Shown here one piece after another: positions 2,061 through 61,628 of a DNA stretch of 64,000 nucleotides. The position numbers and the translations under genes are program-made. The notes under the pieces were generated by a model, which ran no database searches, was not told the origin of the DNA, and saw only the letters and a program-made list of their open reading frames with translations. Each line of letters starts with the position of its first letter. The stretch's first letter is position 1. This stretch comes from Bryum argenteum (Eukaryota; Streptophyta; Bryopsida; Bryales; Bryaceae): contig CM073323.1 of NCBI GenBank assembly GCA_037043015.1, positions 744,001 through 808,000 on the forward strand. The letters run 5' to 3'.

Positions 2061-2192
2061 TATATATTCCCCATCGTATCTGAACTTCTTATTTGGGTTT
2101 AGTGGCCTGGCGCGTTGTCTTACATCCATTAAATTGGCTGCATGCTTGTTCCGGGTAGGTAATAACTATTCGCCATTTTGGCTATTTCATCC

Positions 2193-10486: not shown

Positions 10487-10552
10487 CTGCAAAAACACCA
10501 CCGTTCCAATAATGAAAATTCAAACAACAATAAACCTAATGTTGCAACACAA

Positions 10553-32028: not shown

Positions 32029-35000
32029 ATGGCAACAACTGACGGTCGTGATGCGGGACAGCAGTCAGGTCCGCCATCGACTACCGCACCAAGCCGCCAA
32101 CTCACCTCACAATCTCCAATTGTTGAAGACGAAGATGACGACATTCAAGAGATAATTCCGGGTACACAGCCTTCGCGCGACATTGATGAAGTTGACGAAG
32201 GAAACACACTTACGGTAGCAGCGTCTCCAACTGTAAGATACGCGGAGGAAACTCCTTCTCTCCCAAATACTGTGGAGGTTGGGGTTGTTGAAATGCCAAG
32301 TCATTTGGCTGAGATGGATCCTATGTGGAGCGCCGACGAGTTACGCGCTCAACAGAAGGGAAACTCTATCAACACTATATCTAGGTTGCGAATCAAACCT
32401 GTCGAGAAATCTCGACTTCGTATTCCCCTTTGTCGCCTCTCCTGTTACCCCAAGGTACGTCCTATAATAGAAACAGATGTTTACAAGTTGGCAAACGAGT
32501 ATGTCAAAGGTTACAGAGAGGACGATCGCGTTCTATATGTTTCTCCCTTCAGCAAGAACGGAAAGCAGCGGTTGGTGAAGGACGATGACGTGGTTTGAAA
32601 TAACCCTCATTGGAAAGCGGCCAATGATCGGTTTGAATCCTCATTGCAAGCCAATCCGGATCTTTGCCATTGAGTGGCAAATACTTCTACGTCTATGAGG
32701 GGAATCATCGCGTCACTGCTTGGATGCGGTACATTGAGCAAATGCGCAGAGATGATCCAGATTGGTATTTCTTTATCGACTGCATTGTCCTTGACGGACG
32801 TGCAGAATACAAAGTACTAAACGACGCGATGAATGACATCAACTGGTGAGTTTAATTTCGTATAATATTCTTTGTCTGTACTCTTTTATACACACACTCT
32901 ATATATTTATTAACTCACTTTATGAACAGGTCCACAGAGCATGATCATGTAGAAGATAGTCTGCCATCGAGGTTGCAAGTTGCAACGCATGCGCAAGTTT
33001 GGCAAGATGCCACTTGAAGAATGGAAACCCCTGATCTCTGCTGAGGACTGGAAGTACTGTTACACTGCGAAAGATAAATTGAGGCCAACTTGGTACTTTG
33101 TGACTAAAGACGTCTTCATCAAGTTCCTCTACGCGGTGCGTCTTTAATCATATCTTATGTATGAATTAATTTTCAACTAGGCTTTTAACGTTCTCTAATA
33201 TGCGTTATTTGATCGTTCAGAGGCCTTGTGCTAAGGTCGCCGACGAAGCCCAAGCCAAGTACTACAAAGACACTCCCGAAAACAAGAGGACAGCGCAAGG
33301 AGTTTGGACGGCCATGGACAAGGCTGTTAAGGCTGAGATTAAACGAATCTGACAAAAAGATTTCGACAAAATGCTTGCCGTAGCTAATCCAGAGTTAGGA
33401 AAAGCATTTGAGCAAGAGGTATGAATTCTGTCGACCAGACATATTGTTTTCTCTCGATCCCTTGTCGACACCCCTCTATTTAAATTTTTGATCTCTTTGT
33501 TGTTATTCGATGTAGATCAATCTTCATTATAGCCGTCAGAAGGATCCCGAGATGTCTTTGGAGCGCCTCTAGAAGGTAGCCACCACCAACGTTTTGAAGG
33601 AAGTGAAAACAATGTGGCTTCGTTGGTGGAACAATACTCCGGCATTTCGACGTAGTGTTCGCTTTCCAGACCCGGTCGAGATGAAAGTCAGGGTGTTGGA
33701 GGCATGGCTTGCTCGTGCAGCACTCTGGTCGCAGGTACTCAATATCCACTCAATCACATTTGTTACACCATTTTGTCCATACCAATTTATTATGTATGTA
33801 ACTAACTTCAATTGTTGACCGCAGTTAGCGACGTATCTTAAGGAGGAGGTAAACAGGTTCTTCAAACAAGAGATTTCTCAAATCCCGAACCTTGACGCAA
33901 TTATGATGCCCGAAGAGTACGTCGAAAAATGGCGACTTCTTTTATGGGATAAGGCTTTTGATGCTTATGTAGGGCCCAAAGTCAGCCCTAAGTTCCTTAA
34001 AGGCTCCCACATTGACAAGATAGGCGGGGGTGCTCCAACTAAGAAGCAATTGATGTTCACGTTCGAACACGTCGTTTCGTATTGTCTATTTTATTATCAT
34101 CAAATTCTTTCAAATGATTATAATTGATTATACTCATTGTAGGTATATCAAACAAGAGCTCGTTGCTAAGGGTGGTCTCCCTACGTTGGACATTCCATCT
34201 GAGTTCCAAGTCCCATACTTGAAAAAGAAACCAATGTCGATTTTTTCCAATGATCAGAGGCAGCGGTTCAAGATGGCTTTACTGTTGACTGGTGGTTGGT
34301 TTCTAGAGTCTCTTACCCACCATGTTCACAAGGAAGAGATGCATATTGTGCAGTTAGCGGATTCGGTCGGCTCCGCTCCTGGTTGATGATGATGAGGACG
34401 ACTTCTGCATGCTTCCGGGTGCTCCACCACTACCCCCACCGGCTACACTAAAAGGTAGAGAACATGCAGGTGGCAGCCGCAAACGTCGCAAAAAAGAGCC
34501 TATCCCTGAGCTAGAGGAGGAGGAATAAGAAGAGGAAGTGGAGGAGCACGAAGAGAATGACAAAGACGACGAGGGAGATCATGATATGTTCCCATTCCCG
34601 ATGTTCCCATTCCCGATGAGCTTGCAGGTGGTGCAAATTGGAATGTATGTAAGTTACCTTTTCCTACTACACTTTGTTATTTTTCTAACATATACACTTC
34701 TGTATACATTGCAGTTCAAAGAGAAGTTGATATGACACAAGCTTCCCAAGAGACGGTTGTCAACAACGGTGGGCGTGGTGTAAGAGGTCGAGCTGCCTCA
34801 GAGAGTCAGGCAGTTCTGCCACAAAGGCATGCTTGAGGATGGACACAAGCATCTGAGGGTGGGGTTTCGAATGTGGGATCTACTCCTACATCATCGTCAG
34901 CCCCTCGTGAATCCCCTCTGTCACATGGACCGACGCATTCTAATGGACCCATGCGTCTCATAGTTATTCCCAAAAATGTGGGTAGTACTTCATCTTCTCC

Positions 35001-36165
35001 TACAACTGTAACGCTCCCTATGTCCTAGAGAAAGGAGACACGGCCGCCTAGGTTCAGCAGTCTACAAAGGGTGCAGGCTGGGTAGACGCTATTATTATGC
35101 ACCCTAAGGACGTCAAAATTGACCGTATACTACACGATCGTGCTAATACTTACAACTTCCGGCTTGTGCGAGAGTGTTGGGCCTATAACCCCCTTCCTTT
35201 GGTTAAACCTGGCGCTACCGCAAGAGAGGTATAATTTGAATATTGTACTTTATTTAATCTCTCATTTCAACATTTCGTTTTCTTATTTCGAATTGCTTAT
35301 TGCAGACCTATAACTTTACCATCAAGGTCTATGCTCGTAAGGACTTCGTGAAGATGTTCAATATACGACAGGTGGCGCAAGCATACGCAGGAGTCGCGAC
35401 CATACCTGACGAGGATGACATGGTCAGTTACTTTGCTGACGCGAGTTCTATTACCTACCGCACTAACGGAAAGCCGTGGCGCGGCGCACGTGAGAAGGAT
35501 CCTTCGTTTTTGCAGTGCTTCGTGGATTGTCTCACGGACGATGGGGGAATCGTGTTTGACTTAAGCGCTAGTACAGGTAAAAATTTAAGTTCCCATTTAT
35601 AAGCAGTTTGCAAATTCATATTTTCAATACTCATGTGGATTTCCAAATGTGCAGGTGCTTCAATTATCGCATGTGCACGCTCCAATCGTCACCTCATTGC
35701 TTTTGAGGCAGATGAAGAGATCTTTGATGGCTCTTCGCCACCTTCAAACACCCTAAACCGTTGGAAGAAGAAAGTGGGGAATCAGCCTCTGGTGACGATT
35801 ACGACTCCGATGAACCATATCTGAGGAAGCCTCGCACTTATATTGGTGTGTAGTTCATTCAATTCAATGACTTTTTGTGATTTCAAAGTCCGTACTACAT
35901 TCATAGCATTGACTGGTTATGATTATTTAGATATGCAGGCATCTCAAGACACTTGACCCGAAACGCTCATCTCATCAATAGCCCACCTCCCACACTTGTT
36001 CTACCATCTTATGCGGAGCATGTTGCTCGGGCTTTCGTCGCGGCTCCAACTCCTCCTGTACCGAATTCTTCACGCCGACGCTTTAGAGCTTGTGTGCTTA
36101 GGTACGTTGACTTAGAGGCAGATCAGTGTGACCATCATTTTAATGGTGCTTCACCTTCATCGTAG
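32029..36165 (+). pseudogene. ParB-like / DNA methyltransferase-like fusion gene, copy B (MULE II)
   Basis: This is the most diverged of the four copies. Exon 1 (from an ATG at 32029) has PLCRLSCYPKVRPIIETD and VYEGNHRVTAWMRYIE (ParB-like). Later exons keep EEYVEKWRLLLWDKAFDAYV, the acidic/basic linker, and the C-terminal FLQCFVDCLTDDGGIVFDL with SASTG, ASIIACARSNRHLIAFEADE. The motif IV region (DAPE) is missing, so catalysis would be lost. Other breaks include TGA at 32596 where Trp is expected, a frame change near 32670, stops near 33352 and 33571, and a frame change near 34385. The C-terminal exon (YVDLEADQCDHHFNG) ends at 36165. It reads toward the R end. Confidence 0.65.
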
Positions 36166-39288: not shown

Positions 39289-40150
39289 GGGGAATGCACG
39301 GGTGTGAGCGGAGAGCGGTGAGCGGTGAGCGGTGATTGACAGAATTATTTTTTTTTTCATGAAAGATTAAGACCCTATTACCACTCATTGCAAAAAAAAT
39401 TTTAAAGTTAATAGCCCTATTACCATGGGATGGGTGGTTCTGAATTTTTGACATGGTCGTTTTTAGGCTGAAAAAAAACCCAACACCGTGGCTATAGGTC
39501 CTTTATCCATTTATTTTTATGGTTTAGAGGTTATACAATATTTCATAAATTATCCACATTTGCAAGTTTAAATAAAAGTTAATTAAAATATGGGCTGGCA
39601 TCATCATGTGTAACCAATACAATTGAAATCATATACAAAATCTAAACCATAATTTGGGATGGCCCTTTAGGTAATCAATAAGTTTACTTTATCAATATTA
39701 AGATTTAGAGACTAATTAGGGCTGACGTCATCAATTTCCTATTACACCTGTCAGAAATATAGGTAGATGCTTCGGTTCATATAATCTGAAATTTAGAATT
39801 ACAGGTCGTCTTCCTGTGTCACCTTGTAAGGTGTACAGAAAGACATTCACGTGGCATTGTAGTGGTCCGAGTTCGATTCTCCTCGGCCTCGTTTGAGCGT
39901 TGCACCGCGTTCTAAAGCAGCTATCCTGAGCTATACAATTACTGTACTATAGCCCCTACCGACATTGGCAAGCTTCAATCACTCCCATGGAAACAAAAAA
40001 ACTTTTAGTGTACAATGAGTTTAGTAATTAAAAATTTACATACATCGATGCATTGATATTGGAGTTGAAGGAGTTACATAAAAATTAGGGCTGACGTCAC
40101 CGTTAAAGGCATGCATGGCTTACATTACACCGTTTTGAGATACTTAAATG
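39289..40150. repeat. R end of MULE III with tRNA-like arm
   Basis: Heptamer tip at 39303-39333. Conserved blocks CCCTATTACCATGG (about 39414) and ACCGTGG (about 39485). A B-box-like arm CCGAGTTCGATTCTCC at about 39867, and GGGCTGACGTCA sites at about 39719 and 40088. The similarity to copy A breaks off at about 40150 and resumes near 41680. Confidence 0.7.
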
Positions 40151-40242
40151 GCATGTTTTGTAATATCACCCACATCTTCCATAATATCAACAAATTTATG
40201 TAATATCATCCAATATTCCATAATATCACACTATTAGAAATT

Positions 40243-41000
40243 TTGCTCATGCTCATGCTCAATGTCGGTGCTCATGATCATGCTCATGCTCAATGTCGGT
40301 GCTCAGGCTCATGCTCAATGTCGGTGCTCATGCTCATGCTCAATGTCGGTGCTCATGCTCATGCTCAATGTCGGTGCTCATGCTCATGCTCATGCTCAAT
40401 GTCGGTGCTCATGCTCATGCTCATGCTCAATGTCGGTGCTCATGTATTATGATGTTGGACGTCATGAGATTGAATGGGTTGTGTCATATGGAGTGTCGGT
40501 TAAGGGGTGAATACATTCCATGAAGCTGTGAATTGTCGGTGCTCATTGTGATGTGCTAGTAGAGATGGGAGAAAAGGATGCTGTGGTGATTGGATTACTC
40601 ACGAGAATGTAAGAAAAATGCCGTGATGGTGTTCATGAGAACTCACGTCCATTGTCATGACAGTGTAAGTGAATTTTTGTCTCGATTTCTAATTTGTTGG
40701 AATGTCGGTGCCGCTGTGGAGTTCAAGATGATGACAAAAAATGTAAAAAATGTTCAAAATCGCGGTGCCACTGTGGAGATCGAGAAGTGACAAAAAAAAT
40801 GAAAAAATTGTCCAAAATCGCCGGTGCATTTGTGGAGTTCGAAGCTGACAAATAATGTAAAAAAATGTCTGAAACTGTCGGTTTTAGCTGTGGAGTTCAG
40901 AAGCTGACAAAAAATGTAAAAAAATGTCCAAAATTATCGGTGCCGGTGTGCCGATTCTGACGGCACTGCCGGTGTCCCAATCTGACTGCACTGCCGGTTT
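40243..41000 (+). repeat. Minisatellite and degenerate array upstream of the ADD gene
   Basis: At 40243-40450 are seven tandem units of CTCATGCTCAATGTCGGTG with variable CTCATG copy number. From about 40490 to 40960 the same GTCGGTG core recurs in longer, degenerate units with GTGGAGTTCGAAGCTGAC and AAATGTAAAAAATGTCC. It lies directly 5' of the ADD gene and may be its promoter region. Open frames in the minisatellite are artefacts. Confidence 0.8.
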
Positions 41001-41146
41001 TGGGTGATCATATTGGTGAGGTTTGATGGGAAATCCAAAGTTTTTCCTTGCATACAATAACGGAGGAGGAGAAAGCCAGCATCTCAATGCATTGTGTTGG
41101 CCATCTCTTTTTTGAAACCTCTCACTCTTGCACTGTTGTGGAACAA

Positions 41147-41584
41147 ATGGCGGGGCATTCGGCCGATTTTGATCCTTTGTACTTGTATTCATGCACTGCT
41201 TGTGGAGCTAAAAAAATCCGTGCTTGTTTGTTGGAGCATCCTCGTCTCGGTGTTGGCATATGCATTTCGTGCAAACTTGTGTTGGACGACGTTGTATTCA
41301 CGAAGAACGCCCAGTACGATGATGAGCAATGCAATTGGTGTGGGGGAAATCAGTTTGTGATCCCGTGTGATTATTGTAACAGGGCGTGGTGTGCAGCGTG
41401 TATCGCACGGAACAAGGGAGACGACTACCTGAAGGACATGACGGTCAAAAATTGGGGGTGCTTCAGCTGCAACAAGTACGAGATAGTGCCTCTGCAGACG
41501 ATCTGGGAGGATTTCGTGGAATTCACTTCAGAAGCTGGTGACCGCAGCAGCAGTGATTCTGCGAGTGATTCCAACTACGACTAG
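41147..41584 (+). CDS. ADD-domain (ATRX-DNMT3-type) zinc-finger protein
   Basis: An intact single-exon frame of 145 residues from ATG 41147; an in-frame ATG at 41087 would add 20. It matches the two-part ADD fold: a GATA-like finger (CTAC ... EHPRLGVGICISC), the linking QYDDEQ as in DNMT3 (YDDD.Q), then a C8 PHD-like finger (CNWCGG, CDYC, CAAC, WGCFSC). A hydrophobic/acidic tail ends in a Ser/Asp run (DRSSSDSASDSNYD). In DNMT3 and ATRX the ADD reads unmethylated H3K4 (with H3K9me3 in ATRX) and anchors DNA methylation or chromatin remodelling. Here it stands alone, next to and convergent with the methyltransferase gene, inside a block of about 1.5 kb absent from copies A, II and D. Nuclear H3 reading is an inference from the family. 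Confidence 0.7.
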   Translation: MAGHSADFDPLYLYSCTACGAKKIRACLLEHPRLGVGICISCKLVLDDVVFTKNAQYDDEQCNWCGGNQFVIPCDYCNRAWCAACIARNKGDDYLKDMTVKNWGCFSCNKYEIVPLQTIWEDFVEFTSEAGDRSSSDSASDSNYD

Positions 41585-41805
41585 TTGATTGCTAGTTATA
41601 GTAGTTGTTTGGCCAGGACTCACACTTGGATTGAGAGTTGGCTTCAATGTGCTGAAATTTTTTGAATACATATGACCGACTTATAAAAATATAAAACCGT
41701 GTATATTGGAAAACACATATAGATAGTATATAAGTAATAGATCATGGAAAACTACGAATGTATGGCGCTACCATGTCTAGTACCTATCGGAAAACAAATC
41801 ACAAA

Positions 41806-44800
41806 CTAGGCAGACGGTGTAGTACCATTAAAGTGCTGATCACACTGATCTGCCTCAAAGTCTATAAACTTAAGCACACTCTTGCTATAACGCGACGTGG
41901 AGTGTCGGACAAAATGGGGATGGAGCTTGAACAAACTCTTGAGCAAGACGCTCAAAGATACGATGGTAGAGTGAATTTCGATGGAGGGCTCTTGTAGAGA
42001 TGAGCGTTGCGAGTCAATCGCTCTTTTAGACCTGCGATCCTAAAATTGCAAAGAAAGTCAGTTTTGGCGATTTGAAAGTGTGTAATTTAAAATTGAAAAA
42101 GAGAATACAAGATGGTAATACGCACCAATGAACTTTCGTGGTTTCTTCACGACCGGTTCGTCAGAGTCATAGTCTGCGGGAGGGGCCGATTCTCCACTTT
42201 CTTCATCACCGGGAGGACCATTCTTGTAATCCGCGAGTACACCATCAAAGATCTCTTCGTCAGGTTCCATAGCGATGAGGTGTCGGTTGGAGCGCGCGCA
42301 AGCAATCACCGATGCACCTATAAAATTGGAAACCAACATTAAAAATGCGAAATGTGGAAACGAATTCCAATGTAGAGTGTACGGAAACAGTACCTGTACT
42401 TGCGCTCGAGTCGAACACTATACCCCCCTCGTCCGTGAGACAATCGACAAAACACTGAATGAAGGAGGGGTCCTTCTCTCGTGAGCCTCGCCACGGCGTA
42501 CCGTCCGGACGATAACGCAAGGTTTCTTTCTCTCGCAAAATTACGGTGGTCTTCCTCATCAGTGCGATTGCGACACCCGCGTATGCGTGTGCGACTTGCC
42601 GAGTTTGGAACTTTGAAACGAACTCTTTGCGAACATACACTTTGATATGGAAGCAGTGAGTCTGCAAAACACAAGTACAAATACGTTAACATAGAAGCAT
42701 AGAAGGAAATATTCATAAATCATGCAATTGGAAATTAGAATTTGTTCCGTACCTCTTTCGGTTTGGGTACGGTAGAGGCCATGGGGAGGGGATTATATCC
42801 CCACCAGTCTCGAACAAGACGAAAACCATACGTATGAGACTCAGAATCGACGGTACGCTCGGTTCTCCGACATTTTGGATGCATCAGAAGAATGGCTCCA
42901 ACGTCTGTCAAATGATACGCGGCAAACACGAAGAGGCTCTCAAAGTAGGTTTTGTCACGCCGGTTCCAGGATGGAATTTCTGTTGGAGACACACCTGGTA
43001 CAGGCAAGTTTTCGGGAGCATCTGCAAAAATCAGATGAATCCCTGGATGCTTGGGCTCATACTCCATCGCCGAACACGGGTACCTACGGTCTTTGCCAAT
43101 CTGAGGTACATGTGAAAAATTAGATAGTTGCTAATAAATTCACGAATACAAAACGTAAGTAGAAAGATTATAAATGACAAATGTATGAAATAATACCTTC
43201 TTGATGTGCTCAACGATATCTACGATTTGCGAATCTCATTTCGCTGTCTTCGATGACTGGTGAACTAAGTCTCCAATGTTACCCTTCTCGAGATACATAG
43301 GCAAAGTGACTGTGATTTTTGACGACGAGCTGCTACCAATGTGATTGGGTTTCGGAAGAGGGCGTTTGGCAAATTTTGACTGACTGAGACGGCGAGGAGA
43401 CTGCGGAGAGTTGTGGTCAACGGTAAAGGACACGGGAGGGGATCCCGCATTCGTAAGTCCACCACCGGACACCTGAGTTAGTCGTGCACCATGTCAAACG
43501 ACATGGACTGTCGCACCATGTGATGTTTGAGTAAGATCAGGGTCCTCCGGACCTTCCAGTTGGAGAGGAGCGATTTCTCCGGAATGTTGTTGAAGATCTT
43601 CCACCGGGTCGGCACCAGCGTTACGTCGCTTCTTCTTTGCCCGAGCTTTAGGCTGTGCAGCTGGGGACGATGGTGGAGAACTAGAGACAGGTGCGCTCGG
43701 TAGAATTGAGAGGTCGTCGTCGTCGTCGTCGTCATCATCGATCTCCATGGGTTCATTGGCAGCTCCAAGTGAACCGAGATTTCGCACAAGTTCCTTCTCC
43801 TCCTTGTGCACAAAGTTAGCCTGGCACTCAAGGAACCAACCCCCCGTAAGTAACTGTGCGTTAGTGAATTGCCTTTGTTGGGATTCGGAGAAGATGCTCG
43901 AGGGATCGTTTGTGACTGCAACGTCTTCCAACTCCAAAGGAATGGACCATGAAGCTAGAGCTCCCTTTGCAAGAAGCTCTTGCTTCAAGTACCTACAAAC
44001 AAAATATCCAATTAGATCAACGGAATGAAATATGTAATGCAGACTTCGTTAGTAGATAAGTAGGTAACAGTTAGCATACCTGAACAACAAACGTTTGATG
44101 GTGACTTTGCCACCCGCAATCTTATAAATATCTGTGCCCTTGATGAATTTGGGGCTGGCATTTGGAGCAAGGTAGTTGGCGAATGCCTTCTCCCAGTATA
44201 GCAACCTCCATTTCTCCACATAGGAGGATGGCTTCAAGACGCCGTCAGACCACTGAATGTTGAGATTCTCTTTTTCGATAACTTCTCCAATTCACTTTCA
44301 AGAGATTTCTCTAACTGCACATACATAGAGAACGATGAAAATTATATTATTCTAGAGGCAACAGAAATGTAAACATAGAAGTGGGGATCAAAGCACCTGT
44401 GCCCATAAAGAGGCTCGATGAAGGAATGTAATCAGACTTTTGTCCTTCATAGGGCGGTCTTCCGGGAAGTGGACTGAACGTCGAACATCGTTTGGTGAGT
44501 TCCACCATTGCAACCACTTTGCCTTGAAATCGAAATGGACATTCGTAGTTGCTACCATGTGCAAGCGATCGATTGTCATGTCCGGTTTGAGGGTTTTGCT
44601 ATAGTGTGCATAAATCTGCACAAAAGACGGATTGTAATACAGAATTTAGTGTTCAAAAGCAATCATATGTAAGCGCAGAAGTAACATTAAAAAATAGACA
44701 TACACACCTCTTTTGGGAATTGTCTCCCAAGATTGTAATTCGCCACTGCGACCATCTTGTCAAAATTTTTGCCACGGATTGCTTTTATTTCTGCTTTGAT

Positions 44801-46080
44801 AGCATTGTCCATGGCACTCCATACTCCTGGACCCGATTGCTTCTCTTTCGGGACAGTGGCATAGTAAGCTGCCTTTGCATCATCGGATGCTTTGGCTAAC
44901 CTCCTCTACAAAAGACAACTGAAAGATAAGAAGATGTGACAAATAAGACACTATGTACAAAAGAGAAGCGCTTGATAGGGGAACTTACCGAGTATAAGAA
45001 CTTAACGAAGACGTCTAAGGTGACAGGGTACCAAGTTTCTTTCTTGGCCTTGGCGTTCTTGCAGATTCTGTAGTCTTCTGGACTTATGAGATCTTTGAAA
45101 TCGTGCAGTTTGAGCTTACCAAATTTCCGCATGCGTTGAAGCTTGGCACAAAGGCTGTCTTGAACATGGTCATGTTCAGTAGACCTACAAATTGTAATTA
45201 GAATTTAGGAACATTGGAGGGAGATCATGTAGAAAACAAATTTGAGTTAAAGAAAGAGATATTCTCTTACCAGTTGATGTCATTCATGACATCGAGGAGC
45301 AAACTGCTCTCCCCGCGAGCATCGAGGATGATGCAGTCAACTGAAATATGCCACGAAGCATCGAGCTTGTGGTACCTTTCGATGTGCCGCATCCACGCAG
45401 TAACACGATGGTTTCCTTCGTATAAGTAGAAGTACTTGCCGATGAGATGATGGAGATCCGGATCCGCGCGCAACGTCTTATCAAATTCGTCATTCGCCTC
45501 TCTCCAAAGCGTATCCTTAAAGACATCGTCTCCGGCATCCACAATCTTCTCTCTCTCTTTTCTATCAAAGGGAGACACGTACATGACCCGGTCGCCCTCG
45601 CGATAGCCTTTGTTGAACTCATTCTCCAACTTTCTGACGTCTTGCTCCGAAATTGGTCGAACCTTGGGATAACAAAGAAGGCGACACAACGGAATCATCA
45701 TGCGAGATTTCTTAACGGGTTTGAAACGCAACCTGTTGATGATGGCGATAGAATCACTCTTGTGAATCATTCGCATCTCGTTTGCACTCGATCTGGATCT
45801 TTGTTTTGGAGATGAGGGGGCATGTGAACAATCCCGACATTGACACCACCCGCAATGCAGGTTCGTCGCCATCGGAAGAGAAATCGTGCCCATCGTCCGC
45901 ATCGAATGTTTGAGGAAGTTGGGCAGTTTCGAACGAACTATCGCCAGGAACCGCATCTGTCGAGGCTTCTTGTATATGTTCCTCAACAACTACCCCGTCT
46001 TCACCAATGGTGTTTTCAATTCCGTCCGTAAGACGAGGTTGGACATCTTCTTCATCATCAAGCGGAGAAGTTGGTGACAA
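41806..46080 (-). pseudogene. ParB-like / DNA methyltransferase-like fusion gene, copy C (MULE III)
   Basis: Same exon layout as copies A and D. The ParB-like exon (45289-46080) has SDSIAIINRLRFKPVKKS, PLCRLLCYPKVRPISEQ and LYEGNHRVTAWMRHIE. Middle exons include SSYVEKWRLLYWEKAFANYL and an Asp run with PMEIDDDDDDDDDLSILP. The methyltransferase part has LIFADAPENLPVP, PSWNRRDKTYFESLFVFAAY, GGIVFDSSASTG and ASVIACARSNRHLIAMEPDE. Breaks include a TGA as second codon after the equivalent ATG, a frame change near 45790 before SANEMRM, another near 44290 and another near 42560. The last exon ends at 41806. It reads toward the R end and is convergent with the ADD gene. Confidence 0.7.
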
Positions 46081-46225: not shown

Positions 46226-49200
46226 CTATTTAGACTTGGACTTTTTAGCGAATCGGGGTGAGTGTCGGGGGGCAAGTCTGGCCAATGCCTTGGCTGCAAG
46301 ACGACGTGCTTTTGCTTCTGCATGATAGTTTCGCATGTAACTTGCCCGTGCTACCCGATCAACATCAACACTTGAAGTGTGACGGACAGGAGAAGCAGGT
46401 GGGGGCGTTGCTGGAATCGAGGACAAAGGTATTGCTAAACAGCGAGACTCAACTACTTTCTGAACATAAGATCTAATTTCTGATAAGTCGCTATCGGTGT
46501 CTGATTGTTCTTCCTCCACAACGGCGGACTTCTTCACAACACTCTTAGGTTCCTGCAATCCCACGTACCAGAACTTCAGAAAGGAGATATCAACAAACAT
46601 ATTCAAACATCGTAGAACAACAACACAATACAAGATCCAGAAGCACCGCATCAGCGGGCTCTATCACCCAAATCTAAACGTCCACTACATCGCCATTAGC
46701 CTCACATAGACGCTATTCCGGACCACACAAGCTTATCGAGGTGACAAAAAGAAAGAAGTTTGCAACAAAAAAATGACGAGCATCCTCGAGGGTCAGCCTT
46801 GCGTCCACGCAAGGCTGACTCCTGTCACACAAATTCACCAAAAAAATTTGACTCCCGAGCTCCTGGCCAGTCCTCCACCACCACGCTTGCGAGCTGGCAT
46901 CCCGAAGGATCCCCCAGCATGCCTCAGCTGATCTTGCAGAGGAGCAGCAGCAGGGTCGAGAGCCTCCACCGACCACTCACAGACGCTAAGGGCAGCCACT
47001 CAGAGGGTCTGCTTCCTCGCATTGTGCCTCACACACAAGCTTATCGGGGTGACAAAAAGAAAGAAGTTTGCAACAAAAAAATGACGAGCATCCTCGAGGG
47101 TCAGCCTTGCGTCCCACGCGCAAGGCGACTCTGTCACACAAATTCACCAAAAAAATTTGACTCCCGGGCTCCTGGCCGGTCCTCCACCACCACGCTTGCG
47201 AGCTGGCATCCCGAAGGATCCCCCAGCATGCCTCAGCTGATCTTGCAGAGGAGCAGCAGCAGGGTCGAGAGCCTCCACCGACCACTCACAGACGCCGAGG
47301 GCGCCCACTCGGAGGGTCCGCTTCCTCGCATTGTGCCTCACGACAAAGCTTATCGGGGTGACGAAAATAAAAAAATTTGCATCAAAAAAATGACGAGCAT
47401 CCTCGAGGGTCAGCCTTGCGTCCACGCAAGGCTGACTCCTGTCACACAAATTCACCAAAAAAATTTGACTCCCGAGCTCCTGGCCAGTCCTCCACCACCA
47501 CGCTTGCGAGCAGGCATCCCCAAGGATCCTCCAGCATGCCTCAATTGATCTTGCAGAGGAGCAGCAGCAGCGTCGGGAGCCTCCACCGACCACTCACAGA
47601 CGTTGAGGGCAGCCACTCAGAGGGTCCGCTTCCTCGCATTGTGCCTCACACACAAGCTTGTCGGGGTGACAAAAAGAAAGAAGTTTGCAACAAAAAAATG
47701 ACGAGCATCCTCGGGTCACCTTGCGTCCCACGCAAGGTCGACTCTGTCACACAAATTCACCAAAAATTTGACTCCCGGGCTCCTCGGCCGGTCCTCCACC
47801 ACCACGCTTGCGAGCCGGCATCCCGAAGGATCCCCAAAGATGCCTCACCGATCTTGCGAGGAGCAAAGCGGCGGCGTCGGGAGCCTCCACCGACCACTCA
47901 CGTACGCCGAGGGGCCAATGCACTCGAGGGTCCGCTTCCTCGCATTGTGCCTCACAGACAAGCTTATCGGGGTGACGAAAATAAAAAAATTTGCATCAAA
48001 AAAATGACGAGCATCCTCGAGGGTCAGCCTTGCGTCCACGCAAGGCCGACTCTGTCACACAAAATTCACCAAAAAATTTGACTCCCGAGCTCCTGGCCGC
48101 CCCTCCACCACCACGCTTGCGAGCCGGCATCCCTAAGGATCCCCAAAGATGCCTCACCGATCTTGCGAGGAGCAAAGCAGCGTCGGCGTCGAGCCTCCAC
48201 CGACCACTCACGACGCCGAGGGCGGCCACTCGGAGGGTCCCTCGCATTGTGCCTCACATACAAGCTTATCGGGGTGACAAAAAGAAAGAAGTTTGCAACA
48301 AAAAAATGACGAGCATCCTCGAGGGTCAGCCTTGCGTCCACGCAAGGCTGACTCCTGTCACACAAATTCACCAAAATAATTTGACTCCCGGGCTCCTGGC
48401 CGGTCCTCCACCACCACGCTTGCGAGCTGGCATCCCGAAGGATCCTCCAGCATGCCTCTGCTGATCTTGCAGAGGAGCAGCAGCAGCGTCGGGAGCCTCC
48501 ACCGACCACTCACAGACGCTGAGGGCAGCCACTCAGAGGGTCTGCTTCCTCGCATTGTGCCTCATAGACAAGCTTATCGGGGTGACGAAAATAAAAAAAT
48601 TTGCATCAAAAAAATGACGAGCATCCTCGAGGGTCAGCCTTGCGTCCACGCAAGGCTGACTCCTGTCACACAAATTCACCAAAAAAATTTGACTCCCGAG
48701 CTCCTGGCCAGTCCTCCACCACCACGCTTGCGAGCTGGCATCCCTAAGGATCCCCCAGCATGCCTCAGCTGATCTTGCAGAGGAGCAGCAGCAGCGTCGG
48801 GAGCCTCCACCGACCACTCACAGACGACGCGAGGCGGCACTCAGAGGGTCTGCTTCCTCGCATTGTGCCTCACACACAAGCTTATCGGGGTGACAAAAAG
48901 AAAGAAGTTTGCAACAAAAAAATGACGAGCATCCTCGAGGGTCAGCCTTGCGTCCACGCAAGGCTGACTCCTGTCACACAAATTCACCAAAAAAATTTGA
49001 CTCCCGGGCTCCTGGCCGGTCCTCCACCACCACGCTTGCGAGCTGGCATCCCGAAGGATCCTCCAGCATGCCTCAACTGATCTTGCAGAGGAGCAGCAGC
49101 AGCGTCGCGAGCCTCCACCGACTACTCACAGACGCTGAGGGCAGCCACTCAGAGGGTCCGCTTCCTTGCATTGTGCCTCACACACAAGCTTATCGGGGTG

Positions 49201-49721
49201 ACGATAAGCAATCAATGTACAATAAGAGTTTGATAAGCATCCTCGCAAGTCAGCAGGACTCGCTCGGTCCGGGGCCTCCATCCACACATCACAGACATTG
49301 GAGCGGCCTTTCTGAAGTTCAGCAACCTCGCCATTTGCCTCACAGACACGCATTTTGGGGTGGAGAAATTCACAGGCACGAATTTCGCTACCTCGCCATT
49401 AGCCTCACAGACACACATTTCGGGGTGGAGAGATTCACGACAAAAATAACAGAACCAAGCAGGGAGATTCATGATTGCGATGCATACCTTAAATTTGTTT
49501 GTGTGGCAATTCTTCAGCTCCTCATTAGATTCCAACGGTCCTTCATGAGGATGACGATGACACTTATAGAACTCTCTCCAAACTCTCGATTCTGAACTTG
49601 TACTCACATTTTGCAGATTCGAGTCAATGTTCTCCCCCTCGCTTCGCACACCCTCCTCCTCCTCGACTCCGTTTGCCATTTCTTCCTCCTCTGGTATCGC
49701 TACTCCGCCCTGCAACTCCAT
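46226..49721 (-). CDS. Small basic/acidic protein gene, two exons, MULE III
   Basis: Exon 1 at 49608-49721 encodes 38 residues starting MELQGGVAIPEEEEMANG and ends at a strong donor (AAT|GTGAGTAC). Exon 2 at 46226-46552 follows a TTGCAG acceptor and starts EPKSVVKKSAVVEEEQSD. Both junctions are phase 0, giving about 146 residues. The product is acidic in front, with RHTSSVDVDRVAR in the middle and a basic tail ARLAPRHSPRFAKKSKSK. The intron of about 3 kb contains the palindromic tandem array. Exon 2 is conserved in all four copies; exon 1 is visible only here. Function unknown; the basic tail suggests DNA or chromatin binding. The gene is intact as read. Confidence 0.5.
46710..49210. repeat. 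Tandem array of about 307-bp units with palindromes (MULE III)
   Basis: Eight units start near 46792, 47100, 47410, 47714, 48022, 48325, 48632 and 48940 (spacing 303-310). Each carries a palindrome of arms GTCAGCCTTGCGT and ACGCAAGGCTGAC around two central bases; units 2, 4 and 5 are slightly degenerate. The rest of the unit contains CCTCCACCACCACGCTTGCG, ATCTTGCAGAGGAGCAGCAG and CACAAGCTTATCGGGGTGAC. Shorter leftover units (GCCTCACAGACACGCATTT) run to about 49440. Long open frames on both strands are artefacts of the unit length. Confidence 0.9.
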
Positions 49722-51887: not shown

Positions 51888-54800
51888 ATGGCTTCCTCCT
51901 CTTCGAACCCTCTCATGCGGATGTCGTTGAGATTGTATCACAGGGGAGCACTTGTTCCCCATTTGCTGTCCGTAGGGCTTGAAGGTATCGTAGAGATCAT
52001 CGCATCGTGGCTTGGAATTCGATTCGGGTACGATGCATCTTCCCTGTGGTTAGAGAGAGAAGTTCTTGAACCCGTTACTAACCATGTTCAGTATTCCCTG
52101 GTCGTAGATCCTATCATCTTAGAGAATAATACTACAATTTGGAAGCTTACTGCTGGAAAGTACCGCCTCTATGGTTTGACAGAGTCCGTCATGAACGCCT
52201 CAACAGTTCTCCTGACCCCACGTAGTTCATCTACAATCTCCACAGTAGCTCCCGGTCTTGCTCGTGTCAAGGTCGAACCAGGTTTGGAAGTCACCATTGA
52301 CATATCGGATTCATCAGAAGACGAGAAGAAGTATCCTCGGCAGCCATGTCGTCTGTCGTCTGCAATTCCATTGCAACCTCCTATTAGGGATAACTACCTA
52401 AGAGCCACCCCTCCTTTACTTACATCCGAAAATGTGGAACCCAAAAAAATACTTCCATCCCTCTGCAATCTCGCTAGAATGCCCAGTAGCAAGACTCTCC
52501 TCAAAAAAATAGATTTCAAAACCATCCGCACTGTCAACGTATCTTTCTTGCCTCCGTCATTCAATGGCGATATTCTCTTCATCTTTCCGCCGACTCTTCC
52601 GTCAGCAACTCACAAGGTCGCGAAGTCCATGGAGGGGATGGATAAACGGTACGACGGTCATGTGTGGACTAGGACGATGACCACCAACATCAGCAATACG
52701 CAAGGGTTGTCTTTCCGATACTCCAACTGTGTAGGACATTTACAGTGCCACAACCCTAACTGCGACTTCTTGCAACGACCTGATCGAGTCGCTGGTGTGA
52801 ACGATGTGGAGTTTGAAGGCATAACCAGGACCCCTTTCCGGTAGGCGGAGCGCCCCCACCCACCTCTACGTTGGTCTGTAAGCTTTGCAAAGATCCTCCT
52901 GTTTGTGTTGCGCCTTGTACTGCAAAGATCTTTTACGTAGTTGGAGAAGATTGTCAGGAGCGTGCATGTGTCCATATAGGAACGCACGAACACCCTGTCA
53001 AAGTTGGAGATTATAGATGTGTAAGAAAACAAATAGATGAGTTACTAGAAGAGCATGTTGACCGTAATCCTCAGGCAACCGTTTCTAAAATTGTTATGGA
53101 AACGAGCAAAGACTTGTTGGGTAACTTACTTCTCCGTGACGAAGGTGACCCCGAAAATCGCAACCTTTCTCTTCAAAGTGGAACCGGTCTCTTTGAACAA
53201 TGCAAAGAGTTAAACTCTCCCAAAGATGCGCAATCGTATCTACACTTTCAAGTACTTGCGTAGGTATGGCATTCTCGATGGGATCACAAAGCTCAGAGGT
53301 CTCAGCAACTGGGCATATGTGCAACGCAACATGTTCCCTGGCCAAGGCGACGAATCGGAGAAAGTCTTCATCTTCAAGATGTCCGAGGTCGGCCCCGGTA
53401 GCGGTGTTGATCTGGTCCGACGTATGCAACCTGGAGGAAATCTCTCCCACGCATGGATGATGTTCGACCATGTCAAACGCGTTACGGATTGGACCACCAT
53501 GGCCTGCCACGTGTACGACTCACGTTATCAACGCATTCTAACCATAGCATGCTGTGATTTTCACTCAGAGGACAAAGATGCTCAACTCGTCTTCTGGAAG
53601 AACCTAAATCATGTGATGGCAAGGAATGGAGTCCCTAAGCCGCAGTTCCAAGGATTTATGGCTGATAGTGCCCAAGCCAATTGGAACGCTGTGCGCATCG
53701 TCTGGCTCGAAACCTGCGTCCCCCCATGGAAGGCCGCGAACGCACATGTTATTTCCACTGGACACAATCTCTTGAGAAGCATACGAAACAATACATTGTG
53801 CCGGAATTGCAAGGCCAACACCGGATTCTCTGTAAGCAGTACAAGGATGCGCGCACCATGGAAGAGGCTGAGACCCGATATTGGGCTATACGAGCGTGGT
53901 GGGCATCCTCGAAGGCCACCTCCGAAGTTGGTTTAGAACACTTAGGTCATTGGCTTGCGTACTGGCACTTCAGATACAGACAATGGGGTGGATTTATGGA
54001 ACTGGTAAGTATCCAATTATTGTGGTGTCTTTGCTTATGACATGCTCTAGGGATGCTTCTCGAATGTTCAGAACGTACCAAAGAAATTGACAGTTATTGT
54101 TTTAATAATATATATTATTAGTTGATTTTTTATGTGGATTTATATACTTTGAATCTAGTTTAAGTACAAATCTAAATTCTGAATAAAATCTTCGTACATG
54201 TGTACATTGCGGAAAAAAATATTCGGCCAAGAACTTGCAGAGATGCCTTCATGTAATCTTGCGGAGTCAATCCATAACAAGTGGTCGCAAGCGTCTGGCA
54301 ATAAGGGTAGGGATCTCTACGTCGCACGGTTGTTGACGACTACGTTCGCGCATTCCTCCAAGTTGTTGGCTACCATCGAGTTCAACAAAGGCGGTGCAAG
54401 TGGTTCGGACCATCCGTAGAAGAACTTCGTCGGCGCCTTTATACCGCCCAACGTCGGGCTAATCGATCCGCAATCCATCTTGCCTCAACAAGGTCATTAT
54501 GGACTTCCCCTGTCAAGCTTATCGTACACGTGACGCCCACTTGGAGGGGGAGATTTTTGGTTCCAGGAAACGGAAGGCTGATGTTCCCATTGGTCTTTGA
54601 AGATGAAACTCATCGACCGACACCGTGAGTTACTCACGTCCTCGAATAGGGAGAAGAGTCACACGAGCTCTTCTTTGAGAATCTCGATCCTATCCACGAA
54701 GAAGATGAAGTTCATGAGGAACCGATGGAACCCCTCGCTTCTCCAAGACCCGAGATTCGGCCAGCGTCATTGCTATCCAAGAGACGAGGTGAATGAGCGT

Positions 54801-55613
54801 CTATGGCACATTGCTCGTTTGAAGGAATCCTCATCCAAGGCTTGTTGGGGTATTATGGCTAAGACCAGGAAGAAATGCGATTCCCGCATTGTCCAAAACG
54901 GAAAGGCGACCGCGGCTCAACTTACACCGAGTATGGCAACGTCCTCAAGAGGGACCCAAAAAAAATCGACCGGTTTTTCTTTTGTCCGCATTTACATTGA
55001 GCGTTGTGTGAAAGGCAGTCGTCGTAAATGGATTGAGCCGTTCTCTCGTAAACAAGGACGACCGCCTATCCCCTCTGTTTGGCCCGTGAAGATTGGGACC
55101 AATCTGACAGTGGACGAAATAGAGGCGTTGGAGAATGCGGGTTTTCGGCTCCCACAAAAGGAACGCCTTCCTCTCAACCGCACATTCAATACTTTTGCGC
55201 CACCGAGAGACTTGTCACATATTCTTGTGCCGGACAAGGCTGATATGTACCCCAAATCACGCAAGTCTAAAGTTCTTCGACGCATCAAGGCCGTGACTTC
55301 GAAGCACATGAAGAACATTGACTCAGCTCGTGCCATGGAGGCAAAAATACTCGAGGTGACCATGATACCTCAACCTGGTTTTGGATGTATCGTTGCTTTG
55401 GAGTCGGATTCAGAATCTATCTATAAACTCTCTCTAAGTGAGAACCCTGAGTGTTCTTGCCCGGTGTTCAAAAAAACCATAACTAAGTTAGGACGAAAAG
55501 GCGAACCGTATAGACATTGCAAGCACCTATACTTTGTGTTGGTATTGGTATGCAAATTTGATATTGATAGAGACCTCTTCATCCACGCGCCCACCTCGCC
55601 TTCAACGAGGTGA
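51888..55613 (+). pseudogene. MULE transposase with SWIM finger (copy III)
   Basis: Starts MASSSSNPLMRMSLRLYHRG. A zinc-binding block SNCVGHLQCHNPNCDFLQR is near 52720-52780, with a second CKLCKDPPVCVAPC near 52880. The DDE region follows: WTTMACHVYDSRYQRILTIA, CCDFHSEDKDAQ, QGFMADSAQANWNAV, then RTCYFHWTQSLEKHTKQYI. A GTAAGT donor at about 54006 leads to an exon with CNLAESIHNKWSQASG (likely the catalytic Glu). The C-terminal SWIM finger is CSC ... HCKH at about 55452-55530. Frame changes occur near 52840, 53225 and 53720, and a stop near 54420, so it is inactive as read. Family role: cut-and-paste transposition at the TIRs. It reads toward the L end. Confidence 0.65.
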
Positions 55614-55919
55614 AAACCATTCTAGAGCGGGGAATCCTAGACCAAGTTAGAGAGTAGACTACCTCAAGGTCACATTACGTAAACCAACATCCACATCTAC
55701 CTATTCTACATGTTATCCCTGTAATCGTGTGTTTCACACGTAATTTATTCTTATTTCAGCGTTTTACAAAAGTCAATAAATGTATCCCTATTTACAAAAA
55801 TTTATGAACTGCTATACAACTTCGTCTTCCGATTTCAAAGTTATGATATACTAGCCTACTCTGTAAAATTTGTAAATGTCTCTTAATGTTTGAAGAACGT
55901 GGTTTAAGTCTACCAAATT

Positions 55920-56138
55920 TCAGAATTTTTAGCCTTATCTCCACGGGTTTAGGAACACAAAACCACGGTAATAAGTCAAGAATATTCGAATATTCTTGAG
56001 AATATTCCAGAAAAAATAGTAAAATATTATTTTTAGAATTTTTTTTGCTAAGAATACCAATTCACCGCTCAAATTCCTGAAACTTGATGGCTCAACGCTC
56101 ACCGCTCACCGCTCTCCGCTCACACGGTAGCTACGTCC
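55920..56138 (-). repeat. L end of MULE III
   Basis: Read inward from the right, the end carries GTGTGAGCG, GAGAGCG, GTGAGCG and TTGAGC heptamers. An AT-rich block with AATATTCGAATATTCTTGAC and TTATTACCGTGG follows, shared with the L end of copy II. The outer tip is GGACGTAGCTACC, against GGACGTTACTTGG in II. Confidence 0.7.
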
Positions 56139-57271: not shown

Positions 57272-60200
57272 ATGAACATAGCTCAAGTCCATCTCTTTGA
57301 AGATGAAGTCGTCAACCGGCCTCTCCTTAATCCTCCACAAACAGGGTCTTCCGACAGAGATGAACTCATACTTCATAGTGTCGGAAATTTTGAAGAGTTG
57401 GGATCTGGAGTACAACTAGAGAGGCCTGCGGAAACTGATCACCAACCTTTGGAAAGACAATGCAATGCAGTTTCAAGTGACAATCCTCTCGAAGCTGTTG
57501 ATATTCATACACTGTTTCAGGACCATGACGGACACCATTCCCTCTCGGATGATGAAAAAACTACATTGCCTGAAGGTGTCAACGTTGGAATCATTCACAT
57601 GCCTCATCATCTTCAAAACAAAGATCCGGACTGGAGTGCAAACGAGATGCGCATGCTCCACAAGAGTGATTCGATTGCAATCATCAACAGGTTACGCTAC
57701 AAACTTGTCAAGAAGTCCCGTATGCTAATTCCACTTTGTCGCCTCGTTTGTTATCCGAAGGTTCGCCCGATCTCAGAACAAGAGGTCAGAAAACTCGAGA
57801 ATGAGTTCAACAAGGGATACCGCGAAGGCGATCGGGTAATGTACGTGTCTCCCTCCGACAGAAAAGGCCGAGAGAAAATTGTTGACACTCAAGATGAACT
57901 TTGGACGAACCCGCTTTGGACAGCCGCGAATGAAGCGTTCGAAAGTACGCTACGGTCTGATCCAGATCTTCGTAACCTTTGTGACAAATATTTCTATGTC
58001 TACGAAGGTAACCACCGTGTTATAGCCTGGATGCGCCATATCGAGAGGTACCACAAGAATGATCCCTCGTGGTACATTTCGGTTTATTGCATCGTACTCG
58101 ATGCCCGTGGAGAGAGTAATCTCCTCCTCGATGCTATGAACGTCATTAACTAGTAAGTGAATGTCGCATTTTTTAAAATTTCTTTCTTTTATGATTTTAT
58201 CATATATAATTTTTCTCACTTTTCATTCTATGTTGTAGGTCCACTGAACATGATTACGTCGAAGACAGTTTGTGTGCGAAACTCCAACGCATGAGGAAGT
58301 TTGGTAAGTTGAAACTCGAAGACTTCAAGGACCTCATTTCTCCAGAAGATTACAGAATCTGTAAGAACGCCAAAGCAAAAAAGGAGACGTGGTATCCTGT
58401 CACAATAGACGTTTTTGTAAAATTTCTATACGCGGTACGTTCACTACATATGTGCTCGACTCCTCTTCTTCAAATTTATCTAAAACAACTTCTCATTTGT
58501 GTTCTGGTTGTAATATAGAGGAGGTTAGCGAAAAAATCCGACGATGCTGAAGCTACGTACTATGCCACGGTTCCAAAAGATAAACAAACTAGACCGGGCG
58601 TATGGAGTGTCATGGATAACGCAATCAAGGCTGAAATCAAATTAATACGTGGGAAGAATTTCGACAAGATGGTCGTTGTGGCCAATATCAAACTCGGGAA
58701 AGTATTTGCGAGAGAGGTATTGTTGGCTGGGTTTTTTTTTATTTATGACATTGTATTTCTCTTCACGTTCTACTGCTCTAATCAAAACTGTGATTCTGAT
58801 GTGCAGATTAATTCTCATTACAGCCAGAACCTAAAACCCGACATGACGCTTGAACGCTTACACATGGTAGCCACTACAAATTTTCACTTTGAATTCAAGG
58901 CGAAGTGGCTGCAATGGTGGAACTCACCAAACGAAGTTCGACGATCATTTCGCTTCCTAGAAGAACGCCCCATGAAAGATAAAGCGTTGATTTCATTTCT
59001 TCATCGTGCTTCTCTTTAGGCACAGGTAACTTGCATTTTTGTTCTCTGATTACAAAATTTGAGTTTATATGTTACTTTAAATACTAACATGTTTCCTGTA
59101 TTCTCAGCTTGAGCAATCACTTGAAAGTGAATTGCAGAATCTGGTAGATAACGAGAACCTCAACATTGAGTGGTCTAGTGTTGTCCTAAAGCCATCCGCG
59201 TATATCGAGAAGTGGAGGTTGCTCTTATGGGAGAAGACATTCGGAAACTATCTTGCTCCAAATGCAAGTCCGAAGTTCATAAAAGGCTCGGATCTTCATA
59301 AGATTACTGGAGGCAAAGCTACAATTAAGCGACTTTTATTCCGGTATGTTTTCTTTTTCGTATAAAATATTATTGAAAGTGGATCAACGTATTCAATTTT
59401 CCCTATCTAATTTGTTTACTTTTTTGTAGGTACTTAAAACAAGAGCTCGTTGCCAAGGGAGCTTTGCCTTCGTTCTCTATTCCAATGGAGTTCGAGGACG
59501 TTGCAGTGACGAATGATCCCCGCAGCTTTTTCTCCTCAGCCCAACAAGAGCGGTTTACTAACTCCCAATTGACGACCGGTGGATGGTTCCTTGAGTGCGA
59601 CGACAACTACGTGCACAAGGAGGAGAAGCATTTTCTTCGAAACCTGGCTTCAAATCCAGCTCACTCCGCACCGATGGAGATTGACGACGATGACGATGAC
59701 GACCTTTCCATTTTACCAGATGCACCTGATCCTATCTCTTCACCTTCTTCACCAGTTGCAGTGCCTAAGTGTCGTGCAACCAGGAAGCGACGCAATGCTG
59801 TTGCGGAACCTGTTGTAGATCTTGAGCAAGAATCCGAAGAAACTGCTCCCCTCCCAGTAGATATTGCAGGGCCAGAAGATGCTGATCTGACTCAGGCTTC
59901 AGAGGGAGCGACAAACAATGCAAATCGACGCAGTGCAAGATTGACTCAATTTTCTACAGGTGGACTTACGAATGCTGGGTCCCCACCTCAATCATTTACC
60001 GTTAACCACAACTCGCAGCAGTCCCCACGTCGCCTCAGTCAGCCAATATTTGCCAGACGCCCTCTTCCGAAACCCAATCACATTGGTAGCAGCTCGTCGT
60101 CAAAAATATCAGTCACTCTGCCTATGAATCTCGAGAAGGGGAACATTGGAGATTTGGTTCACCAGTCATCGAAGAGACGAAGACTGCAAAATGGGATTCG

Positions 60201-61628
60201 CAAATCCTCGATATCGTCGAGCACATCAAGAAGGTATTATTTCATACATTTGTCATTTATAATCTCCCTAATTACATTTTTTACTTGTAAATCTATTAAT
60301 CAATATCTAATTTTTGACTTGTATCTCAGATTGGAAAAGACCGTAAGTACTTGTGTTCGGCAATGGAGTATGAATCCAAGCATCCAGGGATTGATCTCAT
60401 TTTTGCAGATGCTCCGGAGAACTTGCCTGTACCGGGTGTGTCTCCAACAGAAATTCCATCCTAGAACCGGCGTGACAAAATCTACTTTGAGAGCCTCTTC
60501 GTGTTTGCCGCGTATCATTTGACAGACGTTGGAGCCATTCTTCTGATGCATCCCAAATGTCATAGAATCGAGCGTACTCTCGATTCCGAGTCGCATACAT
60601 ATAGTTTTCGTCTTGTTCGAGACTGGTTGGGATAAAATCCCCTCCCTATGGCCTCTACCGTACCCAAACCGAAAGAGGTACAAATCAGATTGTAGTTTCC
60701 AATTTCACAATTCATGGTTATTGCCTTCTATGCATCTATAGTAATGTATCTATACTTGTGTTTTGCAGACTCACTTCTTCCATATCAAAGTCTATGTTCG
60801 TAAAGATTTTTTTCCAAAGTTCCAAACTCGGGAAGTGGCACACGCATACGCGGGTGTGGCAATCGTACCTGATGAGGAAGACCACCTCTGTAACTTTGCA
60901 GAGAAAGAAACCTTGCGTTATCGTCCGGACGGTACGCCGTGGCGAGGCTCACGAGAGAAGGACCCCTCCTTCATTCAATGTTTCGTCGATTGTCTTACGG
61001 ACGACGGGGGTATAGTCTTTGACTGGAGCGCAAGTACAGGTACTGTTTCCGTAAACTCTACATTGGAATTCGTTTATACATTTTGCATTTCTAACGTGGG
61101 CGTCTGATTTTTTAGGTGCATCTGTGATTGCTTGCGCACGCTCTAACCGACACCTCATTGCTATGGAACCTGACGAAGAAATCTATGATGGTGTACTAGC
61201 TGAATACAAGAATGGTCCTCCCTGGGATAAAGAAAGTGGAGAATCAGCCCTTCCCGCAGATTATGACTCTGACGAACCGGTCGTGAAGAAGCCACGAAAG
61301 TTCATTGGTGCGTAATACTATCTTGTATTCTCTTTCTCGATTTTAAATTACGCACTTACAAATCGGTAGGACTGACTTTCTTTGTACTATTAGGATCGCA
61401 GGTCTGAAAGAGCGATTGACTCGCAACGCTCATCTCTACAAGAGCCCTCCATCAAAATTCACCCTACCATCGTACGCTGAGCGTCTTGCTCAAGAGTTTG
61501 TTCAAGCTTCATGTCCCATTTTGTCTGACACTCCACGTCGACATTATAGCAATAGTGTGCTTAAGTTTATAGACTTTGAGGCTGATCAGTGTGATCAGCA
61601 CTTTAATGGTACTACACCTTCAGCATAG
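57272..61628 (+). pseudogene. ParB-like / DNA methyltransferase-like fusion gene, copy D
   Basis: Best reference for the family structure. Exons: 57272-58152, 58239-58434, 58519-58716, 58807-59025, 59108-59343, 59430-60233, 60330-60677, 60769-61039, 61116-61307, 61394-61628, about 1190 codons. The ParB-like domain covers residues 152-280 (PLCRLVCYPKVRPISEQ; GNHR at 246-249). The linker has an Asp run EIDDDDDDDLSILP and basic ATRKRRN. Motif IV-like ADAPE is near residue 870; motif I-like DWSASTG near 1047 spans the exon 8/9 joint. Breaks: Trp to TAG at the exon 1/2 codon, near 59016 and near 60463; TAA near 60633; a 5-base insertion near 60170. ATG 57272 directly follows a TATTAG acceptor, so an upstream non-coding exon is possible. 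Confidence 0.75.

Follow-up and report, generated by a model that had tools for sequence, protein, structure and literature searches.

The stretch analysed here (the window) comprises 64,000 nucleotides of Bryum argenteum DNA and contains a small gene, ADD1, which lies on a mobile element beside a multi-exon gene with ParB-like and methyltransferase-like parts (Table 1). The ADD1 frame runs from ATG to TAG, encodes 145 amino acids and has zero internal stops; the opposite strand is interrupted by stops. The intact frame, the full cysteine pattern of an ADD domain and the position of a stand-alone ADD gene next to a methyltransferase-like gene had all been put forward in a sequence-only reading of this DNA, and each is upheld by the results below.

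Table 1. Features of the ADD1 element and related copies in the window
Feature	Position	Strand	Description
ADD1	41147..41584	+	intact, stand-alone 145-aa gene, ADD of ATRX type by score; C-terminal tail acidic and less conserved
Block with ADD1	40147..41682		approximately 1.54 kb; approximately 54 bp at the same site in sister copies 1 and 3
ParB-like and methyltransferase-like multi-exon gene (copy 2)	41815..45989	-	convergent with ADD1
Sister copy 1, ParB/methyltransferase-like gene	5724..10035	-	without ADD
Sister copy 3	57272..61619	+	inverted, without ADD
Sister copy 4	32029..36135	+	more degraded, no ADD match
Left terminus of ADD1 element	39289..39340	+	GGGGAATGCACGGGTGTGAGCGG followed by (TGAGCGG)n heptads
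Tandem array, approximately 308 bp	46695..49278		toward the far end of the ADD1 element
MULE-like transposase fragments	51888..56131	+	run up to a terminus built of these heptads, reading GCTACCGTGTGAGCGG on the minus strand

ADD1 is predicted to encode a two-finger ADD domain. The GATA-like first finger (CxxC...CxxC) is formed by cysteines 16, 19, 39 and 42; the PHD-like finger that comes next supplies the other eight (62, 65, 74, 77, 82, 85, 105 and 108). All 12 align with ATRX, all 12 columns are invariant across ten aligned ADDs (including spliced ADD2 and ADD3, discussed below), and the set is complete in 26 of 30 ADD1 copies fetched from the genome. In a PDB search the top match is the ATRX ADD (2jm1, residues 13-126; E = 1.6e-14), which pairs with ADD1 residues 13-121 across both fingers. 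The PHD finger of AIRE matches residues 55-117 alone (E = 0.0063), slightly outscoring DNMT3A (E = 0.016 at best), and DNMT3L gives 0.037. A profile made from transposon copies only (A1) returned 9.7e-17 for ATRX, 1.1e-4 for AIRE, 1.2e-4 for DNMT3L and 1.8e-4 for DNMT3A. By score, ADD1 is thus ATRX-type rather than DNMT3-type; of the DNMT3/ATRX-type first proposed for it, the DNMT3 side is not supported. The QYDD of its linker resembles the DNMT3 letters; like DNMT3A, DNMT3B and DNMT3L, ADD1 has a two-finger ADD, but it is neither fused nor adjacent to a C5 methyltransferase.

Other zinc-finger identities were considered. A PHD finger was rejected, as AIRE and CHD4 match the second finger alone (E from 0.0063 to 0.6) whereas ATRX matches both. 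RING, FYVE and other zinc fingers were likewise rejected, and no unrelated family of the PHD, RING or FYVE kind gave a better sequence match: a Pfam scan of ADD1 returned no family besides two sub-threshold ADD models, namely ADD_ATRX (18.9 bits against a cut-off of 25.7, first finger only) and ADD_DNMT3 (14.5 bits, under a cut-off of 26). Two scanned host ADDs exceed the ADD_ATRX cut-off, with 42.7 and 32.7 bits. The AlphaFold2 model of ADD1 is of low confidence (mean pLDDT 40.2, pTM 0.29) and too poor to inform the fold, which is therefore assigned from sequence. As sole query against a protein collection, ADD1 had no match at E 0.001; an ADD profile (A2) recovered 42 proteins, distant ADDs whose informative names are all ATRX or ATRY. 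An Rfam search gave no match.

Like the ATRX ADD, ADD1 combines the two-finger cysteine pattern with an inter-finger linker of equal length; unlike ATRX, it is a stand-alone 145-aa protein without an SNF2 part. According to excerpts of published work, Y203 is the single aromatic residue of the ATRX K9me3 pocket (PMC7764450), and H3K9me3 binding by ATRX is weakened by Y203A and by D/E mutations (PMC12900691). The Y203 position is occupied by V45 in ADD1, by D in ADD2 and by F in ADD3 and in four host ADDs; among the 30 fetched ADD1 copies it is V in 29 and M in one, with no aromatic residue. ADD1 D59, E60 and Q61 align with ATRX D217, E218 and Q219 (counted from Y203 and E218), whereas ATRX D207 and D208 correspond to V49 and V50. 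Because E60 and Q61 are kept and Y203 is replaced by V45, we infer that ADD1 would read the H3 tail with unmodified K4 but not K9me3. ADD3 might read K9me3.

The window holds four copies of the ParB/methyltransferase-like gene (5.7-8.7, 33.3-36.1, 41.8-44.8 and 58.6-61.6 kb) on both strands, and ADD1 lies beside one of them; the early observation that its block is missing from the sister copies holds at the sites compared in copies 1 and 3. The right edge of the block (41682) coincides with the point where resemblance to L035, a larger ADD element, breaks off, which gives the block the look of a cassette that was transferred. Homology of copy 2 to P0044 ends at 41815, and one of its exons (approximately 42.3-42.7 kb) appears by eye to be frame-disrupted relative to another member of the family, L036. 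The far end and target duplication of the ADD1 element were sought in the window and not found. Heptads similar to those of its left terminus occur in the larger elements, in a copy of a further type (L043, below) and at the MULE-like fragment at 51.9-56.1 kb; this fragment resembles by eye the transposase of a larger element (L033), and its three largest frames have no Pfam match. A further heptad array at 37164-37182, which reads GAGCGGTGAGCGGTGAG on the minus strand, could be the end of yet another element. Elsewhere in the window, an approximately 393-bp tandem array (10453-12319) lies toward the far end of another sister copy, and a 777-aa frame (2193-4526, plus strand) has a RING-like finger (zf-RING_2, 5.5e-5, under cut-off).

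The neighbour of ADD1 was examined through L036, in which ten exons joined via GT-AG introns give a single 1079-residue open frame. Comparison with three relatives from Ceratodon purpureus shows that the last exon of this model is wrong. These hypothetical proteins (M758_6G158200, M758_1G310400 and M758_9G084500) have 50-53% identity to the neighbour gene, and the same protein collection yielded no close relative of ADD1. Likeness to the N6/N4-type methylase model PF01555 (N6_N4_Mtase) stays below the cut-off of 26.7 bits throughout: 14.8 in L036, 18.3, 14.5 and 15.7 in the Ceratodon relatives, and 12.4 in the 23-kb element described below. N6/N4-type methyltransferases are expected to carry a DPPY motif; the corresponding site reads DAPE in L036, DAPEG in Ceratodon and AEYP in the 23-kb element. 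The ParB likeness was read by eye, and ParB Pfam models did not match the gene. A methyltransferase fold of the neighbour protein is plausible from these sequence comparisons, and methyltransferase activity is doubtful.

A C5 methyltransferase as the neighbour of ADD1 was rejected: the PF00145 (C5 methylase) profile matches 19 places genome-wide, none of them within the window at E 0.01. Of the DNA methyltransferase that had been named as the neighbour, a weak, sub-threshold N6/N4-type likeness remains and a DNMT3-like C5 enzyme does not. ADD1 itself consists of the ADD with a short tail behind it and has no C5 methyltransferase domain. Two PF00145 matches have an ADD gene in their vicinity: C1:36158403 is 6.5 kb away from an ADD3, and C3:24556159 is 27 kb away from an ADD2. 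By our own estimate this is no more than chance, with approximately 0.9 pairs expected within 30 kb. Three PF00145 matches fall in very long open frames (C3:24556159, C1:43310210 and C1:28763441, with 1278, 1086 and 725 aa, respectively), which would fit C5 methyltransferases travelling on other mobile elements.

ADD1 is widespread in this genome (258.8 Mb in 25 contigs). At least 151 matches were found (best 150 of 294 candidates scored), from which at least 98 ADD1 places were read, damaged and partial copies included; second pieces of one copy, one 30-residue fragment and matches at 41% identity or less were left out. Related genes, ADD2 and ADD3, occupy at least 53 places (best 150 of 211 candidates) and at least 57 places (best 150 of 226 candidates), respectively, leaving out weaker cross-hits and second pieces. 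The search for the same gene on other elements thus succeeded, and a one-off capture of ADD1, private to one element as first supposed, is rejected: ADD1 is a module present on three element types with heptad termini in common. In type A (the window, L031, L032 and L036), the ParB/methyltransferase-like gene lies downstream of ADD1 on the other strand. In type B (L033, L034 and L035), ADD2 lies approximately 2 kb downstream of ADD1. In type C (L043), the ParB/methyltransferase-like gene is upstream of ADD1. The 10-kb stretch of L035 that holds an ADD1/ADD2 copy also has a 684-aa DUF7869 frame (319-2370, plus strand; E = 5e-39).

ADD1 repeatedly has the same neighbours. Among its 98 places, a same-strand ADD2 lies within 8 kb of at least 32 and an opposite-strand ADD3 within 60 kb of at least 23 (chance 0.0066 per place for ADD3); at least 22 have both in those ranges. 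The ParB/methyltransferase-like family looks very large: a first look gave 1235 candidates, of which the best 134 were scored, all matching at 66% identity or more bar two short second pieces, and counts based on them are lower bounds. A scored ParB exon lies within 12 kb of at least 34 of the 98 ADD1 places, against approximately 1.2 pairs expected by chance. These 34 pairs divide evenly between the type A geometry (17, with a spacing of 3.9-6.0 kb) and the type C geometry (17, one of them same-strand), so that 33 of 34 are on opposite strands. From the opposite strands and the two geometries, ADD1 seems to have joined ParB/methyltransferase-like elements more than once. Neither ADD2 nor a scored ParB exon accompanies 33 of the 98 ADD1 places, in part because 134 of the 1235 ParB candidates were scored; conversely, no member of the 98-place ADD1 set lies within 12 kb of 100 of those 134 ParB copies. 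One contig, C1 (44.1 Mb, 17% of bases), holds at least 56 of the 98 ADD1, 29 of the 53 ADD2 and 31 of the 57 ADD3 places, and is possibly a transposon-rich or sex chromosome.

One type B element was read end to end. It is 23,352 bp in length, is flanked by a perfect 9-10 bp target duplication, AGTAACTCAA, and has a 37-bp inverted repeat (89%) just inside its ends. It contains ADD1, ADD2, an adjoining transposase-like gene, a ParB/methyltransferase-like gene (P0044 matches with E = 8.5e-14 and 2.2e-8) and ADD3. The transposase shows an apparent frame change at an ADSAQAN motif, where two frames overlap, and this copy may therefore be non-autonomous. Its target duplication and terminal inverted repeats are of MULE type, for which a duplication of 9-11 bp is expected, and the motifs of its transposase-like gene are ones that we take to resemble MULE transposase. 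The SWIM match of the transposase is under cut-off (12.0 bits against 19.6), and MULE Pfam models matched neither this gene nor the fragments in the window. The assignment to MULEs is thus based on the target duplication, the inverted repeat, the sub-threshold SWIM match and the resemblance of motifs.

Once their introns are removed by eye at GT/AG boundaries, ADD2 and ADD3 also match ATRX (E = 1.3e-10 and 1.1e-12, respectively). Intron positions were taken from genomic GT/AG sites. The ADD2 intron is in phase 0 directly after ...WTK; in L039-L042, four ADD genes that do not lie on these elements, an intron comes directly after ...YTK, FTK, FNK or FTI. The ADD3 intron is close to that of ADD2, and ADD1 is uninterrupted at the same point. 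The ADD2 of L035 has a stop. L041 is taken to be the host ATRX because SNF2-like motifs, identified by eye, lie downstream of its ADD. In the fetched stretches of L039, L040 and L042 no SNF2 motifs were seen; these three genes are a possible source of the transposon ADDs. The intron position common to ADD2 and the four host ADDs suggests that the transposon genes are host-derived and were taken up as genomic DNA, with later loss of the ADD1 intron. A tree of ten ADD rows puts the five from transposons on one side (88/91), on a branch that is not starred and where long branches meet, and a single origin of ADD1, ADD2 and ADD3 is not firmly supported.

ADD1 shows signs of purifying selection between element families. 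Pairwise dN/dS is 0.174 for the window against the C-type copy (at dS 0.44), 0.154 for the window against the B-type and 0.177 for the B-type against the C-type; for ADD2, L033 against L034 gives 0.245. The pooled nonsynonymous/synonymous ratio of the 30 fetched ADD1 copies is 0.26 (ADD part 0.21, tail 0.58), although, these copies being top scorers and akin to one another, the ratio is biased downward and variant counts are inflated. The start codon is kept in 29 of the 30 and stops are present in two; removal of the latter leaves 28 intact copies. Of the variants found in at least three of these 28, those in the ADD part (residues 13-121) comprise 6 nonsynonymous and 13 synonymous changes (ratio 0.115), and those in the tail 5 and 2, respectively (ratio 0.60). 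The contrast between ADD part and tail is less affected by the choice of top scorers and their kinship.

Accessory genes are already known from related transposons. Excerpts of published work describe the VANDAL MULEs of Arabidopsis as carrying extra genes, VANC and VANB, one of which is anti-silencing, with VANC recognising short DNA motifs in related elements. VANC recognises DNA, whereas ADD1, ADD2 and ADD3 belong to a histone-reader family; likened by role, both are MULE-type accessory genes, and VANC is probably the nearest known analogue. Rehavkus, as excerpts of one account have it, is MULE-related, with a 9-bp target duplication, a PHD finger and an internal minisatellite (PMC6446971); its PHD finger is within the transposase, whereas the ADD genes here are separate. 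A literature search, with most subscription journals outside its reach, found no ADD-type readers as selected stand-alone transposon genes.

We lean towards the view that ADD1 serves a group of moss MULE-like DNA transposons as a functional accessory gene, derived from a host ATRX-type ADD and acting as a decoy or adaptor that binds H3. A large element would have captured, at the level of genomic DNA, a host ATRX-type ADD gene with a phase-0 intron between its fingers, and multiplication on that element would have given rise to ADD1, ADD2 and ADD3; ADD1 would have shed its intron and moved onto smaller ParB/methyltransferase-like elements in two geometries. The three proteins would bind the histone H3 tail and, by occupying K4-unmethylated H3 on element chromatin, exclude host ADD silencing proteins (anti-silencing); in an alternative role, they would tether the element's own proteins on this chromatin. 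Since ADD1, ADD2 and ADD3 have no recognised effector domain, we consider it most likely, and take as our first choice, that they counter host silencing as decoys or adaptors, with targeting second.

As a targeting factor, which we consider rather unlikely, ADD1, ADD2 and ADD3 would hold either the transposase or the ParB/methyltransferase-like protein on H3K4me0 chromatin, and in the case of ADD3 perhaps on H3K9me3 chromatin too, so that insertion would be steered into silent DNA. Chromodomains of some integrases steer insertion in this way. The concentration of all three genes on contig C1, the aromatic residue at the Y203 position of ADD3 and the four host ADDs, and the transposase-like gene adjoining ADD2 in the element read whole are consistent with targeting. 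However, the enrichment on C1 may reflect slow removal of insertions there, ADD places alone having been counted, and ADD1 is without the K9 tyrosine.

It is quite improbable that ADD1 and the adjacent methyltransferase-like protein form a reader/writer pair, equivalent to DNMT3 in trans. Given the opposite strands of 33 of 34 pairs, with ParB downstream and upstream equally often, some link between ADD1 and its neighbour may exist; the 23-kb element has a ParB/methyltransferase-like gene as well, and the sub-threshold PF01555 likeness is shared by the window family, the Ceratodon proteins and that element. The DNMT3 design split into two proteins, as originally envisaged, is nevertheless unsupported: PF00145 is absent from the window, so the neighbour is no C5 enzyme, the DPPY site is altered, and most scored ParB copies have no listed ADD1 place nearby.

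Pack-MULEs is the name for MULEs that carry captured host gene fragments, and many genomic ADD1 matches have stops, yet a functionless passenger of this kind is the least likely reading of all, given purifying selection in the ADD part with little or none in the tail, the low dN/dS across families (0.15-0.18), the start codon kept in nearly all fetched copies and the retention of three ADD paralogues on one element type. That MULEs often carry host gene pieces is stated in an excerpt of PMC6446971.

Beyond the decoy or adaptor role favoured here, a wider and tentative possibility is element-encoded epigenetic control, in which ADD1, ADD2 and ADD3 (with V, D and F, respectively, at the Y203 position), derived from a host ATRX-type reader, would together with a protein of ParB/methyltransferase fold sense and alter the chromatin of the element. 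If true, ADD readers would represent a route against host silencing different from that of VANC, the best-described anti-silencing factor of transposons, which recognises DNA motifs, and these transposons would make available natural ADD variants without the K9 tyrosine. Gene removal is routine in mosses, and the idea of a transposon ADD reader is open to testing in these plants.
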